A stretch of 64,000 bases of DNA from Myxacorys almedinensis A (GTDB lineage Bacteria > Cyanobacteriota > Cyanobacteriia > Leptolyngbyales > Leptolyngbyaceae): assembly GCF_010091945.1 (NCBI RefSeq), contig NZ_WVIE01000022.1, forward strand, positions 1-64,000, read 5' to 3'. Positions 12,343 through 60,872 of this stretch are shown here, in pieces (the first letter of the stretch is position 1; every line of letters starts with the position of its first letter). The notes beneath the pieces were generated by a model. It worked only from the letters and a program-made list of their open reading frames with translations, did not search any database and was not told the origin of the DNA. Both the position numbers and the translations under genes were made by a program.

Positions 12343-13269
12343 ATGGCAAATCTATCTACTCAATTTTTTGCTCGACATTTTTTTGCTCGACATTTAGGAA
12401 ACCTTTGGCGTCGTAATCCTGCTCAATCCGCCGCATCCAAGCTTCGAGCGGTATACCTGCTGCTCCTACTGCCGATCTTACTTATGGGGTGTCAATCAAC
12501 ACCTGTCGAAGCCCCACAACCCTCGGTTTCTGCTGATTCTGCCTCTTCAAAAGCGGTCGCTCAGCCTGTGCAAACAAAGGTGCCACCGCCCCCCACCGCC
12601 TCTGCCGTTCCAGCCTCAAAAGCGGCGGTTCGGCGCACTCCAACTAAGGCTCCCCAACCTGCCACCTCTATCTCGCCAAAATCTGGCTCCCCAAAATCTG
12701 GTTCACCAAAATCTGGCTCCCAAAAATCTGGTTCGCCTAAACCGGTTACCCAACCTGCAAAAAACGCTGCTAAACAGCCGACATCGCCAAAACCGAGCGC
12801 TCAGCCTAGGCAAACCAAGGCTCCGCAACCTGCCACCTCTATCTCCCCAAAATCTGGCTCGCCAAAACCGGTTGCCCAACCTGCAAAAAACGCTGCTAAA
12901 CAGCCGACATCCCCTGACCAAAACACGATTCCCGTGACGCTGTACGAACTGGATAATCAGTGCAATAGGTTTGTCTCCAAGAAAATCAGAGTTTCTAAAG
13001 TAAAACCCCTGGAAAAAACGGTCGGGCAGGTGTTAGGAAATCTAAACAGCGATGATTTTAGCGTGTCGGGCTATCGAGTTAGCGTTGCAAAAGGGGTTGC
13101 CACCATTGATTTTAGAACACCGACCAATTCTAAACGGCAGTTAAGATCGCTTTCAAACTGTGAGCAGTTGGCGCTGTATGGTGGTTTGAGAAAAACGCTA
13201 ACGGGAAATAAAGTGTTGAAGATTAAGTCGGTGCAGTTTGCCGATCGCGGGCAAAAGCTCAAGCCATGA
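12343..13269 (+). CDS. repeat-rich lipoprotein with C-terminal GerMN-like domain
   Basis: The 308-residue product has a basic N-terminus, a hydrophobic segment LRAVYLLLLLPILLMGC ending in a lipobox Cys (about residue 50), then a Pro/Ser/Lys-rich linker of ~130 residues. The linker contains repeats PKSGS and a duplicated module (KAPQPATSISPKSGS ... QPAKNAAKQPTSP). The last ~110 residues (VTLYELDNQCNRFVSKKI ... IDFRT ... LYGGLRKTL) resemble the GerMN-type domain of cyanobacterial proteins often called spore germination-like. It is likely anchored in a membrane facing the periplasm. The start is uncertain because ~34 residues before the hydrophobic core is long for a signal peptide. The first residues contain a tandem duplication (FFARHFFARH, from a repeated TTTTTTGCTCGACAT), so the real start could be downstream. 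Function unknown. Confidence 0.75.
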   Translation: MANLSTQFFARHFFARHLGNLWRRNPAQSAASKLRAVYLLLLLPILLMGCQSTPVEAPQPSVSADSASSKAVAQPVQTKVPPPPTASAVPASKAAVRRTPTKAPQPATSISPKSGSPKSGSPKSGSQKSGSPKPVTQPAKNAAKQPTSPKPSAQPRQTKAPQPATSISPKSGSPKPVAQPAKNAAKQPTSPDQNTIPVTLYELDNQCNRFVSKKIRVSKVKPLEKTVGQVLGNLNSDDFSVSGYRVSVAKGVATIDFRTPTNSKRQLRSLSNCEQLALYGGLRKTLTGNKVLKIKSVQFADRGQKLKP

Positions 13270-47443: not shown

Positions 47444-48220
47444 ATGCCCTTACTTCCCCTATGGCTGATCTACCCCGCCACACTAAGCCTATGGGACAAA
47501 ACAAGTGGAACCTGGATTAATCTCATCACCGTCCTCTTAGGAAGCCTTCTAGGGCTGCTCCTGCAAGATGCCTTGCCTCGGAGAATGCAGCGCATCATTA
47601 CCCAAGGTTTAGGGCTGCTTACCACCTTCTTAGGCGTCACCATGGCTGAAAGTTTGCTCAAGGTGCCAGCCGCACATATTGATGGAATCATTCTTGGATT
47701 AATTGCGATCGTAGTAGGCGGAGTGCTGGGCGAATGGTGGCAAATCGAAACCCATTTACGCACCTTGGGCAACTGGCTACAGCACCGGGTTAAGGGAGGC
47801 GGTAATTTCACCGAAGGATTTGTAGCAGCCAGTCTTTTATTTTGTGTGGGGCCAATGACCATTCTTGGCAGCCTCAACAATGGCTTAGCCGGTAATAACA
47901 CGGTGCTCTCGATCAAATCAGCAATGGACGGCTTTGCTGCGATCGCGCTGAGCAGCAGTTATGGCATCGGCGTTGCCTTCTCTAGTGCCATTGTTTTGCT
48001 CTACCAAGGCGGGCTATCGTTAGCGGCTGGGTTCTTTGCCCAGTCATTACCTGACCCTGCCACCGCACCTCCCATACTGCTCACCTCTGGCGTTGGCGGA
48101 CTGATGATCATCGGCTTAGGCTTAAATCTTCTCGAAGTCGCTCAGCTTAGTATTGCCTCCTTCTTACCTGCATTGATCTTTGCGCCGTTGCTGTATGCGT
48201 TGTTGCAACAGTTCACCTGA
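47444..48220 (+). CDS. DUF554 integral membrane protein
   Basis: A 258-residue protein with about seven hydrophobic segments. DUF554 features are visible: TWINLITVLLGSLLGLLL near the start, GVTMAESLL, GLIAIVVGGVLGEWWQIE, TEGFVAASLLFCVGPMTILGSLNNGLAGN and SKSAMDGFAAIALSSSYGIGVAFS-like text (IKSAMDGFAAIALSSSYGIGVAFS). It is probably a transporter, but no substrate has been established to my knowledge. The true start may lie a few residues inside the predicted one. Confidence 0.9.
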   Translation: MPLLPLWLIYPATLSLWDKTSGTWINLITVLLGSLLGLLLQDALPRRMQRIITQGLGLLTTFLGVTMAESLLKVPAAHIDGIILGLIAIVVGGVLGEWWQIETHLRTLGNWLQHRVKGGGNFTEGFVAASLLFCVGPMTILGSLNNGLAGNNTVLSIKSAMDGFAAIALSSSYGIGVAFSSAIVLLYQGGLSLAAGFFAQSLPDPATAPPILLTSGVGGLMIIGLGLNLLEVAQLSIASFLPALIFAPLLYALLQQFT

Positions 48221-48638
48221 TCACAACCGCCAACCCATCGGGAATAAGCAGAGCGATCAGCGCCGCGATCATCTGCTAAGAACTAGTAACATGCACCAAA
48301 CTCTGACTTGCCAACACCAACGTCAAAGCAATCACAACGTCAATATAGACAAATCAAACATAAATTTATTAAATTTTGGTGCTAAATTAGAAAATGTCTC
48401 TATAATGACAGCGACAGCGATAACAGCGATGCGATTTGCGTCAAAAATTTCGTAGAATCGCGAACCACTCTTGAGAGCAGAAATTCAACAATCGATCTCA
48501 GCGAGTAACGCAAGGTTTGCAGTCTGTTTACATCTGCAACTACCCCATGAGGGGAACTGCAACACAACCATAAAGCCCTTTACTAGGGCGCAGATCAAGC
48601 AAAGTTGTCAACTTTACCCAGAAACAAGGAACAGAACC
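48221..48638. promoter_or_regulatory. 418-bp upstream region of the Lys/Ala/Pro-tailed protein gene
   Basis: AT-rich from 48290 to 48480, then a segment with a CCCC-ATGA-GGGG hairpin (48526-48563) and a possible long leader to the ATG at 48639. The track extends the downstream ORF to 48471, but those residues do not look coding. No second copy of the hairpin occurs, so this is not a CRISPR array. Confidence 0.45.
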
Positions 48639-49184
48639 ATGGCAGCAACAAAACGTCGATCACCCACATCAACGCTAGTTTCCAAGAACGCAATCACCCA
48701 GGCATCCAGTTCGTTGCAAGACCTGCCCGAAAAACCAAAAGAAATTTGGTCATTGAGAGAAGCCATCAACTTGCTCAAAGATCAGATCACCGTGGCACTC
48801 GATCGAGGGTACAGCTACACCGAAGTTTCGCAAATGCTATCGAAAACGGGTGTGGAAATCAGCCCATCAACGCTGAAATACTATCTGTCTTCTGCTCGTA
48901 AAGAAGACGGTGGAGGCAAAACCAAGACTCGTAGACGCCGCAGAACCCTAAATCTGCCTGCAGAAGCGTTGCAAAACGGAATGTCGGACGCCGCGATGGA
49001 AAAAGCGCCCGCCAAGGCGAAAACGGCTGATGATGCAAAAGCCCCTGCCACCAAAACAGCCGCCAAAAAGCCTGCCGCCGCCAAAGCCCCTGCCACCAAA
49101 ACAGCCGCCAAAAAGCCTGCCGTCGCCAAAGCCCCTGCCACCAAAACAGCCGCCAGCAGAACCCGCAAAAAAACGGCAGGCTAA
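48639..49184 (+). CDS. putative DNA-binding protein with histone-H1-like Lys/Ala/Pro tail
   Basis: From ATG 48639 (AAGGA 8 bases upstream) the protein has 181 residues. The N-terminal half (about 35-90) looks like a helix-turn-helix module: SLREAINLLKDQITVALDRGYSYTEVSQMLSKTGVEISPSTLKYYLSSARK. A basic patch KTKTRRRRR follows, then a tail of repeated KAPATKTAAKKPAA units (three 45-bp DNA repeats within about 49035-49160) ending RTRKKTAG. Such tails bind DNA non-specifically in histone H1 and in bacterial HctB/AlgP-like proteins. The combination suggests a sequence-reading head on a DNA-coating tail. Function unknown to me; it is not adjacent to related genes. Confidence 0.8.
   Translation: MAATKRRSPTSTLVSKNAITQASSSLQDLPEKPKEIWSLREAINLLKDQITVALDRGYSYTEVSQMLSKTGVEISPSTLKYYLSSARKEDGGGKTKTRRRRRTLNLPAEALQNGMSDAAMEKAPAKAKTADDAKAPATKTAAKKPAAAKAPATKTAAKKPAVAKAPATKTAASRTRKKTAG
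49035..49160 (+). repeat. 45-bp coding tandem repeats (KAPATKTAAKKPAA units)
   Basis: Near-identical units GCCCCTGCCACCAAAACAGC... occur three times in frame, with the last unit truncated before the stop-proximal RTRKKTAG. Nearly uniform codons show recent expansion by slippage or unequal exchange, so copy number may vary among strains. Confidence 0.85.
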
Positions 49185-49368
49185 TCGCGTTTACCATGTC
49201 AGCCAAACAGGGCGCTTCTCTTTACTGATGGGTCGCTTTACTTTTACTAAGGGGTGATTGAATGGGTCAAGAGCAGGGGCAAAGAGTCGCTCTTGATAGC
49301 AGCGCCGTGCAAGGTGCGCCTCCATTTACGGTATGGTGTGAAGGGTCGCTACATCTGGGTGATTCGCT

Positions 49369-50697
49369 ATGCAAAACCTTGCACAATTTTCACTGCCAGA
49401 AAGTTTAGAGGCTTTTTGGATGCCTTTTACAGCTAATCGCCAGTTTAAGGCAAAGCCTCGGCTCATGGCATCGGCTCAAGATATGCACTACACCACGGTA
49501 GACGGTCGGCAGGTGCTAGACGGAACCGCAGGGCTATGGTGCGTCAATGCTGGGCACTGCCGCGACAAGATTGCTCATGCGATCGCGCAGCAGGCAGCTA
49601 CGCTGGATTTTGCTCCGACTTTTCAGATGGGGCATCCCGGTCCGTTTGTGCTGGCAGAACGGTTAGCGCAAATGCTACCAGGAGATCTCAATCATGTGTT
49701 TTTCACCAATTCTGGCTCTGAGTCGGTAGATACAGCGCTAAAGGTGGCGTTGGCTTATCACCGGGTTCGAGGAGACGCTAGCCGCACTCGGTTAATTGGG
49801 CGAGAGCGGGGCTACCATGGCGTCGGATTTGGGGGCATCTCGGTGGGGGGAATTGCGCCCAATCGTAAGTTTTTTGGCAGCCTGTTGCCCGGAGTTGATC
49901 ATCTACCTCATACTCATAATTTAGAGCACAATGCCTTTAGCAAAGGGCAGCCTCGGTGGGGCGAGCACCTAGCAGACGAGTTAGAGCGCATCGTAACGCT
50001 GCATGACCCATCTACGATCGCAGCCCTGATTGTTGAACCTGTTGCTGGTTCAACGGGCGTACTCATTCCACCCGTAGGATATCTAGAGCGGCTGCGATCG
50101 CTCTGTACAAAATACGGCATTCTTTTGATCTTCGACGAAGTGATCACCGGATTTGGACGCTTGGGGAAGGCGTTTGCCACAGACTATTTTGGCGTCATGC
50201 CTGATTTAGTAGCCGTGGCAAAAGGCATTACCAATGCTGCCGTGCCGATGGGAGCCGTGATTGCCCGAAACGGCATTTACGACGCCTTTATGCAAGGTTC
50301 AGACCAAGCGATCGAGCTATTTCATGGCTACACCTATTCAGGGCATCCGTTGGCGTGTGCAGCCGCCATGGCGACGCTGGATATTTACGAAGAGGAAGGG
50401 TTGTTTGAGCGGGCAAATGGGTTAGCACCTTATTGGCAAGAAGCGGTGCATTCGTTAGCGGAATTGTCCTCTGTGATTGATGTTCGCAATTTAGGATTGG
50501 TGGCCGGAATTGAGTTGGAACCGCTGCCAGGAAAGCCGTCTGTCCGGGCTTATGAGTGTATGGTGCGGTGTTTTGAGCAAGGACTATTGATTCGGACAAC
50601 GGGGGATATTATTGCGTTGTCGCCGCCGTTGATTTTAGAAAAGCATCACATTGATCAGATGGTTGATCTGTTGGGCAGCGTGTTGAAACACGGATAA
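49369..50697 (+). CDS. class III aminotransferase (omega-amino acid:pyruvate type)
   Basis: PLP enzyme of 442 residues that moves an amino group from an omega-amino acid such as beta-alanine to pyruvate. Motifs: DGTAGLWCVNAGH, FTNSGSESVDTALKVALAYH, RERGYHGVGFGG, LIFDEVITGFGRLG (PLP-contact Asp), and the Schiff-base Lys in AVAKGITNAAVPMGAV. FHGYTYSGHPLACAA is typical of beta-alanine:pyruvate transaminases. Substrate cannot be fixed from sequence. No operon partner is apparent. Confidence 0.92.
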   Translation: MQNLAQFSLPESLEAFWMPFTANRQFKAKPRLMASAQDMHYTTVDGRQVLDGTAGLWCVNAGHCRDKIAHAIAQQAATLDFAPTFQMGHPGPFVLAERLAQMLPGDLNHVFFTNSGSESVDTALKVALAYHRVRGDASRTRLIGRERGYHGVGFGGISVGGIAPNRKFFGSLLPGVDHLPHTHNLEHNAFSKGQPRWGEHLADELERIVTLHDPSTIAALIVEPVAGSTGVLIPPVGYLERLRSLCTKYGILLIFDEVITGFGRLGKAFATDYFGVMPDLVAVAKGITNAAVPMGAVIARNGIYDAFMQGSDQAIELFHGYTYSGHPLACAAAMATLDIYEEEGLFERANGLAPYWQEAVHSLAELSSVIDVRNLGLVAGIELEPLPGKPSVRAYECMVRCFEQGLLIRTTGDIIALSPPLILEKHHIDQMVDLLGSVLKHG

Positions 50698-52849: not shown

Positions 52850-54070
52850 TCACACCGTACAAATCCGTTGGGTTTCTTGGGCGATCGCCCAATCTTCTTC
52901 AGTATGAATGACCAGAACTCGCACCGTTGAATCTGGAGTTGCAATGTCTTGATTTATTGGATGATTTTCATTTATTTCCGCATCTATTTTCAATCCTAAA
53001 AAACGAAAGGCTTCGCAGGTGCGCGATCGCACCTCAGCATTATTTTCTCCAACTCCTGCTGTGAATACTAATGTATCAATCCCACGTAGCGTTGCCATCA
53101 TTGCACCGATTCCAGCTTGCAAGCGGTGAATGTATATTTCAAATGCTAACGCTGCTTCTGAACTGTTTTCATTTGCGATCGCAGCTTGAATCTGGCGCAT
53201 ATCCGACGAAAGACCCGAAACGCCCTTTAGCCCAGAGTTTTTGTTTAAAAGATGATCCAGGTCATCGACTGAGTATTGTTCTTCCCGCATCAGATGGATC
53301 AAAATTCCAGGATCAATAGAGCCAGATCGGCTGCCCATCATCAAGCCGTCGAGCGGTGTAAAGCCCATGGTTGTATCAATACTCCGCCCATTTTGAATGG
53401 CAGCTAGAGAACACCCATTGCCCAAGTGACAGGTAATCAGTTTTAATTCTGTTAACGCTCGGTTTAGGAGGTGCGCGGCTCGATTTGCACAATATTCGTG
53501 ACTGATCCCGTGAAATCCATATTTCCGAATGCCCTGCTCAAACCATTTGTAGGGGATCGGATAAACCGCGCTGGGCAAGGGCAATTGAGCGTGAAAGGCG
53601 GTGTCAAACACTGCAACTTGGGGAACGACGGTTCCTAACCGATGCTCGATCGCTGCAATTCCTTCTAGATTGGCAGGGTTGTGAGCGGGTGCAAAAGTTG
53701 AAAGACGTGCGATCGCAGCTTTCACTTCTGGCGTAATCACGACGCTTTCTCGATACTCCTGCCCACCATGCACAACACGATGACCCACCGCCTCAATTTC
53801 GGATAGATCCTCAAGAACCTGAGTTTCACCGCTTGTTAAAGTGTTGAACATCGCCGCGATCGCAGACTCGCGATCGCGGGCTGAGAGTTCTTCGCGGTGC
53901 GTTTTTCCTCTACTGGTTTTCACGTCAATTTCAGCCATGCCTTCGCGGTGAGTCCAGTCAATTTTCGCCTCCCAAAGCGGCTGTAGAGGCTGATCTGACT
54001 GGCGTTCGGCAAGGTCATAAAAGGCGCTTTTTTGGCTGCTTGAGCCTGCATTGAGCACTAAGATTTTCAT
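52850..54070 (-). CDS. ackA: acetate kinase
   Basis: Converts acetyl-phosphate and ADP to acetate and ATP. The 406-residue ASKHA-fold protein shows MKILVLNAGSSSQKSAFYDL, HRVVHGG, VAVFDTAFHAQLP, YGFHGISHEYC, CHLGNGCSLAAIQNGRSIDTTMGFTPLDGLMMGSRSGSIDP and FTAGVGENNAEVR. It lies 188 bp after the phosphoketolase gene on the same strand, so the pair forms the acetyl-phosphate branch. Phosphotransacetylase is not in the window. Confidence 0.97.
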   Translation of the reverse strand: MKILVLNAGSSSQKSAFYDLAERQSDQPLQPLWEAKIDWTHREGMAEIDVKTSRGKTHREELSARDRESAIAAMFNTLTSGETQVLEDLSEIEAVGHRVVHGGQEYRESVVITPEVKAAIARLSTFAPAHNPANLEGIAAIEHRLGTVVPQVAVFDTAFHAQLPLPSAVYPIPYKWFEQGIRKYGFHGISHEYCANRAAHLLNRALTELKLITCHLGNGCSLAAIQNGRSIDTTMGFTPLDGLMMGSRSGSIDPGILIHLMREEQYSVDDLDHLLNKNSGLKGVSGLSSDMRQIQAAIANENSSEAALAFEIYIHRLQAGIGAMMATLRGIDTLVFTAGVGENNAEVRSRTCEAFRFLGLKIDAEINENHPINQDIATPDSTVRVLVIHTEEDWAIAQETQRICTV

Positions 54071-54258
54071 AGCTCTACGTCCTTGGCAGATGGTTCCAGC
54101 AAATTTTGAAAGTCTTAACTAAGGTTCGTCCTTGGCAGCAGATTCGGTAGATGAGGTTTCAGTATGTTTTCGGCAGCAATTGGTTGGCAATCGATCGGTT
54201 CTAACATCATCTGGTTCATCTAGTTTCCCATCCGCTGCCAATGCATCAGCCCTGCCAA

Positions 54259-56739
54259 TCACTCCGCCGATCGCGCAGTCGAATCATCTCCAACCATTGC
54301 CGACTCGGTACTGCTAGCGTGCTCAATCGTCTTTTTTTCTGATGATGAACCACTGTAATATTGCCATTTCCAGTCTTGAACTTCTGGCATATCTTCACCA
54401 TGTTCAATAATGTAACGCTGATGATCGATCAGCTTATCTCGAATGATCTGCTTTGTATATGCCCCTGTGTTTCTAAGTTTTGCTACGCGATCGATGACAT
54501 CGTTGGCTAAGTGGAAGCGATCGAGATCGTTAACCACAACCATATCAAAGGGTGTTGTCGTTGTGCCTTCCTCTTTATAACCGCGCACATGCAGATTTCT
54601 ATGATTGGTGCGGCGGTAGGTGAGACGGTGAATCAGGTAGGGGTAGCCGTGAAAGGCAAAGATGATCGGCTTATCGACGGTGAAGATCGAATCAAACTCG
54701 CGATCGCTTAGCCCATGAGGATGCTCGGTTTGGGGTTGGAGGGTCATCAAATCTACCACATTGACCACACGAATCTTGAGATCTGGGTAGTGCGATCGCA
54801 AGAAATCTACAGCGGCTAACGTCTCCAAGGTTGGCACATCTCCGGCACACGCCATCACAACATCAGGCTCATGACCGCTGTCGTTGCTTGCCCACTGCCA
54901 AATACCAAGCCCGGCGGTGCAGTGCTTAATGGCGCTCTCCATGTCGAGCCACTGCAATTCGGGTTGTTTCCCCGCAACGATCACATTGACATATTGACGA
55001 CTGCGTAAACAGTGATCCGCAACTGACAACAATGTATTCGCATCTGGGGGAAGATAAATGCGAATGACGTTGGGCTTTTTATTCATCACAATATCTAAAA
55101 AGCCTGGATCTTGATGAGTAAATCCGTTGTGATCTTGCCGCCAGACATGGGAAGTCAGCAGATAATTGAGCGATGCGATCGGCAATCTCCACGCGATATC
55201 TTCACACGTCTGGAGCCACTTGGCGTGTTGATTAAACATCGAATCAACAATGTGAATAAACGCTTCGTAGCACGAGAAAAATCCGTGGCGTCCGGTTAAG
55301 AGATAGCCCTCTAACCAGCCCTGGCAGAGGTGTTCGCTCAAGACTTCCATCACCCGACCGTCGGTGGAAATGTGATCGTCAATGGGTAAGATCTCTCCGG
55401 TAAACACGCGATCGCTGACTTCTAAAATGGCGTTGAGCCGGTTGGAATTGTTCTCGTCCGGCGACATGACCCGGAAATTGCGACTGTCCAGGTTGAGCGC
55501 CATCACATCGCGGAGAAACTCGCCAAGAATGCGCGTCGATTCTGTCTCAACGGTTCCTTCATCGGTCACGGGCACAGCGTATTGACGAAAATCGGGCAGA
55601 CGCAAATCTTGGAGCAGCAAGCCGCCGTTGGCGTGAGGATTTGCCCCCATGCGCCGATCTCCGCTCGGTGCGAGTTCTGCAAGCTCTGGTTTAAGTTTGC
55701 CAGTGTGATCAAACAACTCTTCGGGTTTATAACTCTTCATCCACGCTTCTAGCATCCTCAAATGCTCTGGGTTGCTTCCCAGTTTGGCAAGCGGAACTTG
55801 GTGAGAGCGGAAAGTATTTTCGATCGGCAGTCCGTCTACTTCTTTCGGGCCTGTCCATCCTTTTGGCGTTCTTAGAATGATCATCGGATACTGCGATCGC
55901 TGTTTAAATCCGTGGGTTCTGGCGTCTCGCTGAATGCCCTGAATTTCAGCCACGATTTCATCAAGCGTTCCTGCCATCAATTGATGCATCATTGCCGGAT
56001 CATCGCCTTCTACAAAGTAAGGTTTATATCCATAGCCAACAAATAAACTTTCGAGTTCGCGATCGCTCATCCGTGCCAAAACGGTTGGATTTGCGATTTT
56101 ATATCCATTGAGATGTAAAATCGGCAGCACTGCCCCATCGCGCTCTGGGTTGAGAAATTTGTTAGAGTGCCAGCTAGTTGCTAGTGCCCCGGTTTCGGCT
56201 TCTCCATCGCCAATAACACAGCACACCATCAGATCAGGATTGTCAAACGCGGCTCCGTAAGCATGAGCTAACGAGTAGCCGAGTTCACCGCCTTCATGGA
56301 TCGAACCGGGCGTTTCGGGGGCCGCATGGCTAGGAATCCCCCCCGGATAGGAAAACTGTAAGAACAGTTGTTTCATGCCCTCTTCGTCTTGAGTGATGCG
56401 GTTATATCGCTCGCTGTAGCTTCCTTCTAAATAGGTGTTTGCCACCATCCCTGGACCGCCGTGCCCAGGACCACAAATATAAATGGTGTTGAGGTCATAA
56501 CGCTTGATCAATCGATTGAAATGAACATAGATAAAATTTAATCCTGGCGTTGTGCCCCAATGTCCGAGCAATCTGGGTTTAATCTGCTCGATCGTTAAGG
56601 GTTGCTTCAGCAGAGGATTGTCCCGTAGATAAATTTGTCCGACCGATAAATAGTTTGCTGCACGCCAGTAAGCATCTAGCTTTTGCAGTTCTTCCGCAGC
56701 CAAAGGAGACTTGATTTGAACGGAGTTTGCAACGGTCAT
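54259..56739 (-). CDS. xfp: xylulose-5-phosphate/fructose-6-phosphate phosphoketolase
   Basis: Thiamine-diphosphate enzyme that splits xylulose-5-P or fructose-6-P with phosphate, giving acetyl-phosphate plus glyceraldehyde-3-P or erythrose-4-P. The 826-residue length is typical. Motifs: [52 protein letters not shown], the ThDP fold [25 protein letters not shown] and the C-terminal [13 protein letters not shown]. It is directly upstream of ackA, so the two can make acetate and ATP from Calvin-cycle or pentose sugars. Confidence 0.97.
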
Positions 56740-60461: not shown

Positions 60462-60872
60462 TACCAATTTAAACACTGCCTGCTACGGATGAGGTCAAAT
60501 GCTCTAGTGGCGTCGAATAGCCATTCTGATCGCAGGACTGCCCTCGATGGGTCAATTCCAGAAAACAGTCGCCCAATCTTCTGAATGAACGAGTCAATAG
60601 CATGAATTAACTAGGGAAGATACTGAATGAACGAGTCAATAGCATAAATTAACTAGGGAAGATACTGAATCGAGGCATGGATGGATTGAACAGACAGGGC
60701 AATTAGCGCAGAGCGCACCTTCACAGAAATGGGCTTTGCCAAGCTCTAAAGCATCGCCTCCCTGCTCTTGCTTTCCCTGTTTCGAGGGATCTTCTCAAGC
60801 ATTTGTAGCAATGATTAATTGATTTGGTATTAGGGTCTCGTGAGGGGTCAACGACCCGCAGGCTAGAATCGC
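60462..60872. other. 411-bp spacer between convergent rdgB and M28 peptidase genes
   Basis: Contains a 42-bp direct duplication (60581-60664). No credible ORF; the track ORF 60721-61092 is antisense to the peptidase end. No clear terminator. Confidence 0.5.
60581..60664. repeat. 42-bp tandem duplication
   Basis: CTGAATGAACGAGTCAATAGCATGAATTAACTAGGGAAGATA (60581-60622) is repeated at 60623-60664 with one difference (CATGAA versus CATAAA). The start of a third copy (CTGAAT) follows. Confidence 0.9.

Follow-up and report, generated by a model that had tools for sequence, protein, structure and literature searches.

The origins of new bacterial chromatin proteins are poorly known. HupB of mycobacteria and other actinobacteria is an HU protein with a Lys/Ala/Pro-rich tail. 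In Pseudomonas aeruginosa, KPAA-repeat peptides of AlgP (AlgR3) bind DNA, and clonal variation of the repeats has been reported (PMC9239181). A different kind of DNA-binding protein is found on plasmids, where StbA, TraK and the MobC of pTF-FC2 have been grouped through iterated searches and gene position (PMC3098194). The target of StbA is a set of 9-bp direct repeats located 5' of its own operon, beside oriT, and TraK binds the oriT region (PMC3098194). Moreover, a role for StbA in pairing plasmids with the chromosome of the host has been suggested (PMC3098194).

Here, we analyzed a gene in a 64,000-nucleotide stretch of Myxacorys almedinensis A DNA (contig NZ_WVIE01000022.1, positions 1 to 64,000), referred to below as the window. 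We propose, with a probability of roughly 0.7, that its product is a chromosomal nucleoid-associated DNA-binding protein that combines a helix-turn-helix (HTH) head of the StbA/TraK/MobC type with an H1-like tail. A search of open papers gave no earlier description of this cyanobacterial family; what is new here is the assignment of the head, the conserved chromosomal location of the gene and the way in which it differs from relatives of plasmid type.

Results

The gene and its expression signals

The gene occupies positions 48639-49184 of the + strand, starts with ATG at 48639 and encodes a protein of 181 aa. Between the window and its sister species, residues 1-122 have a dN of 0.018 and a dS of 0.88. 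The resulting ratio of 0.021, a sequence-based measure, makes it certain that the ORF is truly coding, and by the same measure purifying selection on the head codons is strong. A longer ORF of 237 aa from TTG 48471 was dismissed because protein conservation begins only at ATG 48639. A ribosome-binding site, AAGGA, lies at 48626-48630 (+ strand), 8 nt 5' of the ATG, and AGGA/AGGG-like motifs precede the gene in most orthologues.

The gene is predicted to have its own promoter. A candidate -10 element, TCTATAAT, lies at 48399-48406 (+ strand; TATAAT at 48401-48406), about 230 bp 5' of the start codon. The TATAAT block is kept in nine orthologues from several genera (the window and loci L004-L011) amid otherwise variable upstream DNA, and its L009 version reads ACTTATAAT. 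An upstream operator search revealed no element common to all orthologues; in L006 it returned an 11-bp perfect inverted repeat 3' of the -10 box, and in the window an ACAGCGA sequence that occurs repeatedly. Autoregulation of the gene is a guess. The upstream region of the L009 orthologue also contains an 18-bp inverted repeat (1345-1388, CAGAGACTCCTATGCTAA / TTAGCATGGGAGTCTCTG, 94% complementary), which is possibly a leader hairpin. Rfam gave no match within 48200-49400.

Structure and conservation of the head

The conserved head comprises residues 1-87 (48639-48899, + strand). An N-terminal KRRSPTSTLVSK motif is followed by a helical, putative DNA-binding domain, and the conserved helical part spans residues 16-92. 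AlphaFold2 places helices at residues 16-27, 39-45, 47-55, 60-69 and 76-92, with block mean pLDDT values of 92-97 over residues 41-80. When the head was modeled alone, pLDDT was lower (83-89) and the helices were unchanged. Helices 60-69 and 76-92 form the predicted HTH unit (48816-48914, + strand), in which STLKYYLSSARK is the putative recognition helix and G57, Y58, Y60, L67, G71, I74, S75, T78, L79, K80 and Y82 are invariant or nearly so.

No Pfam or NCBIfam model scored above cut-off for the head. Sub-threshold Pfam, NCBIfam and PHROGs matches to sigma-70 region 4, DUF6471, IS630 and PHROG 1007 (9e-4) were set aside, and weak matches to the CBL UBA domain and to sigma factors in a PDB sequence search were judged to be chance or generic helical similarity. 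A phage origin of the protein was rejected, as tblastn gave 0 matches among 50,697 phage records. The head is also not that of a eukaryotic linker histone H1, since its model is an all-helical HTH rather than a winged helix; the linker-histone Pfam model does not match the window protein.

The head is related to StbA and TraK

Identity between single sequences is 29% for R751 TraK and 28% for StbA, and family alignments were then built. Profile comparison (hhalign) of the head with the TraK family alignment gave a probability of 90.9% (E 1.1e-6), and with the StbA family alignment 92.0% (E 6.8e-7). In column-shuffled controls, 200 for each family, the probability never exceeded 5.5% and 0 of 200 reached the observed score. 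Plasmid-borne relatives matched the head profile with a probability of 99.4% and serve as intermediates. TraK Pfam DUF5338 (PF17273) does not match the window head; R751 TraK itself matches that model at 5.7e-29.

In a Foldseek search of the PDB, the top match of the head-only model was 7pc1, the DNA-binding domain of R388 StbA, with a probability of 0.80 and a TM score of 0.60 on the target, although its E value of 0.66 is not significant by itself; 7pc1 ranks second when the full-length model is the query. The profile comparison, the fold search and the plasmid intermediates together lead us to place the head, by sequence and model, in the HTH domain of the StbA/TraK/MobC superfamily, at profile probabilities of 91-92%, which are below 95%. 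The original prediction had named kinship with a non-DNA-binding family as an outcome that would speak against it; the nearest relatives are StbA, TraK and MobC, and the best structure is a DNA-binding domain.

Distribution and chromosomal setting

A homologue is present in 33 of 34 genomes of the same family, with an E value below 1e-15 in 30 of the 34. In a phylum-wide draw it occurred in only 16 of 386 genomes, mostly of the same family and of a second one, presumably Nostocaceae, which includes Nostoc-like plasmid relatives. The named loci come from Myxacorys, Leptolyngbya, Phormidesmis, Alkalinema, Elainella, Oculatellaceae and others, the nearest named relative being Myxacorys californica WJT36-NPBG1.

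Two synteny markers flank the gene on the + strand. Upstream, 47444-48220 encodes what we take to be a DUF554-type membrane protein; downstream, 49369-50697 encodes what is presumably a class III (omega-amino-acid type) aminotransferase. The order DUF554, gene, aminotransferase is found in the window, in nine more loci and in 12 of the 12 closest named loci (L096-L107), counts in which several of the nine and of the named loci represent the same genome. This order extends across several genera and therefore argues for vertical inheritance rather than for a passenger of mobile elements. Distant family members (L045-L048 and L050) have the gene in other surroundings. Elsewhere in the window, acetate kinase-like and phosphoketolase-like genes, named from their translated sequences, adjoin at 52850-56739 (- strand).

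The genome also carries a short paralogue of 126 aa (L002/L047, contig C3:129744-130046) with the same head and without the long tail; its own tail is Arg-rich and partly acidic. Because this form exists in the same genome, the tail is not required in every member. The paralogue adjoins a thiG-like gene, a synteny not seen at other loci. Similar short forms are present in other Leptolyngbya-type genomes (L129, L132 and L136). Additionally, three genomes contain tandem pairs in which the tail-bearing copy is immediately preceded by a second, divergent head gene (L046:8105 and 9048; L125:4057 and 4989; L119:4322 and 4995).

The tail keeps its charge and its basic end

The tail comprises residues 88-181 (48900-49181, + strand). 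Its 94 aa include 19% Lys, 29% Ala and 7% Pro, with a pI of 11 and a net charge of +18; an RRRRR patch lies near its start, and SRTRKK anchors its C-terminus. It is a Lys/Ala/Pro/Thr-type tail that resembles the H1-like tails of the AlgP/HctB/HupB type, and it is predicted to be disordered, as AlphaFold2 pLDDT falls under 50 for most residues between 114 and 171. The original prediction of an H1-like tail on an HTH-like head, made from the DNA letters and their translations, is thus borne out by structure modeling and by composition.

Within the tail, Tandem Repeats Finder identified a tandem repeat with a period of 45 bp at 49038-49155 (+ strand; 2.6 copies, 98% match, score 229) that encodes KAPATKTAAKKPA(A/V)A. 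Three nearly identical 45-bp repeats had been predicted; near-identity held, but there are two full copies and a 28-bp partial one. The sister species lacks the 45-bp unit and has an independent 33-bp unit in 2.1 copies, and the SRTRKK end is present in both tails. The predicted variability of tail length was correct between species. Other tandem repeats in the window are located at 115-276 (32-bp, 3.8 copies), 12672-12753 (30-bp, 2.6 copies) and 60581-60670 (42-bp, 2.1 copies, 97%).

We divided relatives by their match score to the head profile into chromosomal-type proteins (at least 100 bits) and plasmid-type proteins (30-90 bits). Across the 73 chromosomal-type proteins, median tail length is 93 residues and median net charge +13, and 64 of them end in a basic RxRK-type C-terminus. 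Tail length ranges from 62 to 170 aa in the cyanobacterial chromosomal-type alignment rows, the short paralogue aside. To judge from these sequences, tails appear to re-expand with differing repeat units, so that charge and basic end are retained while sequence and repeat number drift.

The strongly constrained head, the drifting tail sequence and the short-tailed paralogues within the same genomes would also fit an ordinary sequence-specific transcription factor without a chromatin role, whose tail would only strengthen binding or, as a low-complexity extension, be close to neutral. We consider this unlikely, because nearly all members keep the length and positive charge of the tail, though not its sequence, and most retain the basic C-terminus; this combination disfavors neutral drift. 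A nucleoid-associated protein remains our preferred reading of the tail.

Plasmid-type and chromosomal-type relatives differ

tblastn located a related protein on 114 plasmids. On each of the four plasmids that we inspected, this gene and a relaxase-type gene are divergently oriented, and in three of the four a mobC, mobA or oriT-recognition gene lies between the two. The order on a Stutzerimonas plasmid (relaxase-mobA, then in the opposite direction gene X, a P-loop NTPase and a hypothetical gene) parallels traI-traJ and traK-traL-traM of R751. A relaxase, MobC or P-loop partner was recognized in 23 of 27 plasmid-type loci vs 0 of 73 chromosomal-type loci, some of them with just 1.5 kb of flank, at which most plasmid-type loci were recognized. 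The link to plasmid mobilisation genes that the original prediction had raised for relatives holds for the distant plasmid-type ones, but not for the orthologues, which have no such genes nearby.

The two classes also differ at their C-termini. An F..EDL-like motif is present in 12 of 27 plasmid-type and 7 of 8 TraK proteins and in 0 of 73 chromosomal-type proteins. The ends of cyanobacterial plasmid-type proteins (FQPKLYSREDL, FVPQIISDEDL and FNVTDRSDL among L071, L076, L078, L079 and L089) resemble the TraK C-terminal FNFNPKPNKEDLL. On sequence, such an end is a possible partner-binding peptide common to several phyla. The median tail charge is +1 in plasmid-type proteins vs the chromosomal-type value given above (Mann-Whitney p = 6e-12, relatedness ignored). 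In the head tree, which is unrooted and has many unsupported forks, the class split takes three changes vs 23 in shuffles.

These data bear on whether the chromosomal gene is a still-active accessory of plasmid transfer or partition, that is, a true TraK or StbA acting in trans on plasmids or integrated elements. The identical head superfamily, the relaxases adjoining plasmid relatives in the same phylum and one family member on a 1.2-Mb replicon of Kovacikia would suit such a role. However, chromosomal-type loci are without transfer partners and without the TraK-type C-terminal motif, their synteny with core metabolic genes is fixed across genera, and the gene is near-universal in its family, all of which makes a transfer role very unlikely.

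Discussion

Taken together, our data favor a chromosomal nucleoid-associated protein, for which DNA binding, nucleoid association and a regulatory role are what we infer from homology, models and composition. The HTH head would give sequence-preferring binding and place the protein at chosen chromosomal sites. The disordered Lys/Ala/Pro polycation tail would add sequence-independent contacts to flanking DNA, so that the protein may bridge, coat or compact DNA around these sites, and local transcription or nucleoid structure could thereby be tuned. Selection would keep the charge of the tail and its short RxRK end, while the repeats drift via tandem duplication.

Basic disordered tails are able to bind RNA or polyphosphate as well. 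The tail might bind either of these instead of DNA, and the head would then tether granules to the nucleoid, an arrangement already put forward for AlgP. AlgP, which has a similar KPAA tail, associates with granules of polyphosphate and controls their spacing (PMC9239181). For the window protein such a role seems highly improbable, as granule genes are absent beside the gene and no result of this analysis points to polyphosphate.

As for the origin of this nucleoid-associated protein, we tentatively suggest, at somewhat less than even odds, that a plasmid oriT/partition domain was domesticated in one cyanobacterial family and that its partner-binding C-terminus was replaced by an evolvable H1-like tail, yielding a lineage-specific chromatin protein. 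The transition would have run from plasmid to chromosome; the chromosomal lineage has neither the plasmid-type C-terminal peptide nor the relaxase and P-loop partners. Domestication is unproven, since resolution of the tree is poor and the placement of its root uncertain. Given the proposed role of StbA in pairing plasmids with the chromosome, a tail-bearing chromosomal form would be a natural nucleoid protein. The series of plasmid-type neutral tail, short tail and long tail allows a direct test of what a polycationic tail contributes. Furthermore, the analysis gives an identity to cyanobacterial "hypothetical proteins" that have no Pfam or NCBIfam model.

The window protein shares features with several known systems. 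With TraK of the IncP plasmids R751 and RP4 it has in common the head profile match and a low-complexity tail, Pro/Ala/Lys-rich in TraK, and the TraK slot on plasmids is occupied by the intermediates related to the window head. Unlike TraK, it is without the C-terminal FxF..KEDLL motif and without traJ, traI and traL neighbors. StbA of R388 and TraD of NAH7 resemble it in the HTH head, by profile and by 7pc1 as the best PDB match, and in a low-complexity C-terminal region. In contrast to the window gene, the gene for StbA lies on a plasmid next to oriT and shares an operon with stbB, and the StbA tail has no basic H1-like repeat. AlgP likewise joins a helical N-terminal domain to an H1-like repeat tail of the KPAA type, but its tail is longer and the protein is gammaproteobacterial. 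HupB, too, couples a folded domain that binds DNA to an H1-like tail, DNA binding being putative for the window protein; its folded domain is of the HU beta-arm type, whereas the window head is modeled as an all-helical HTH.
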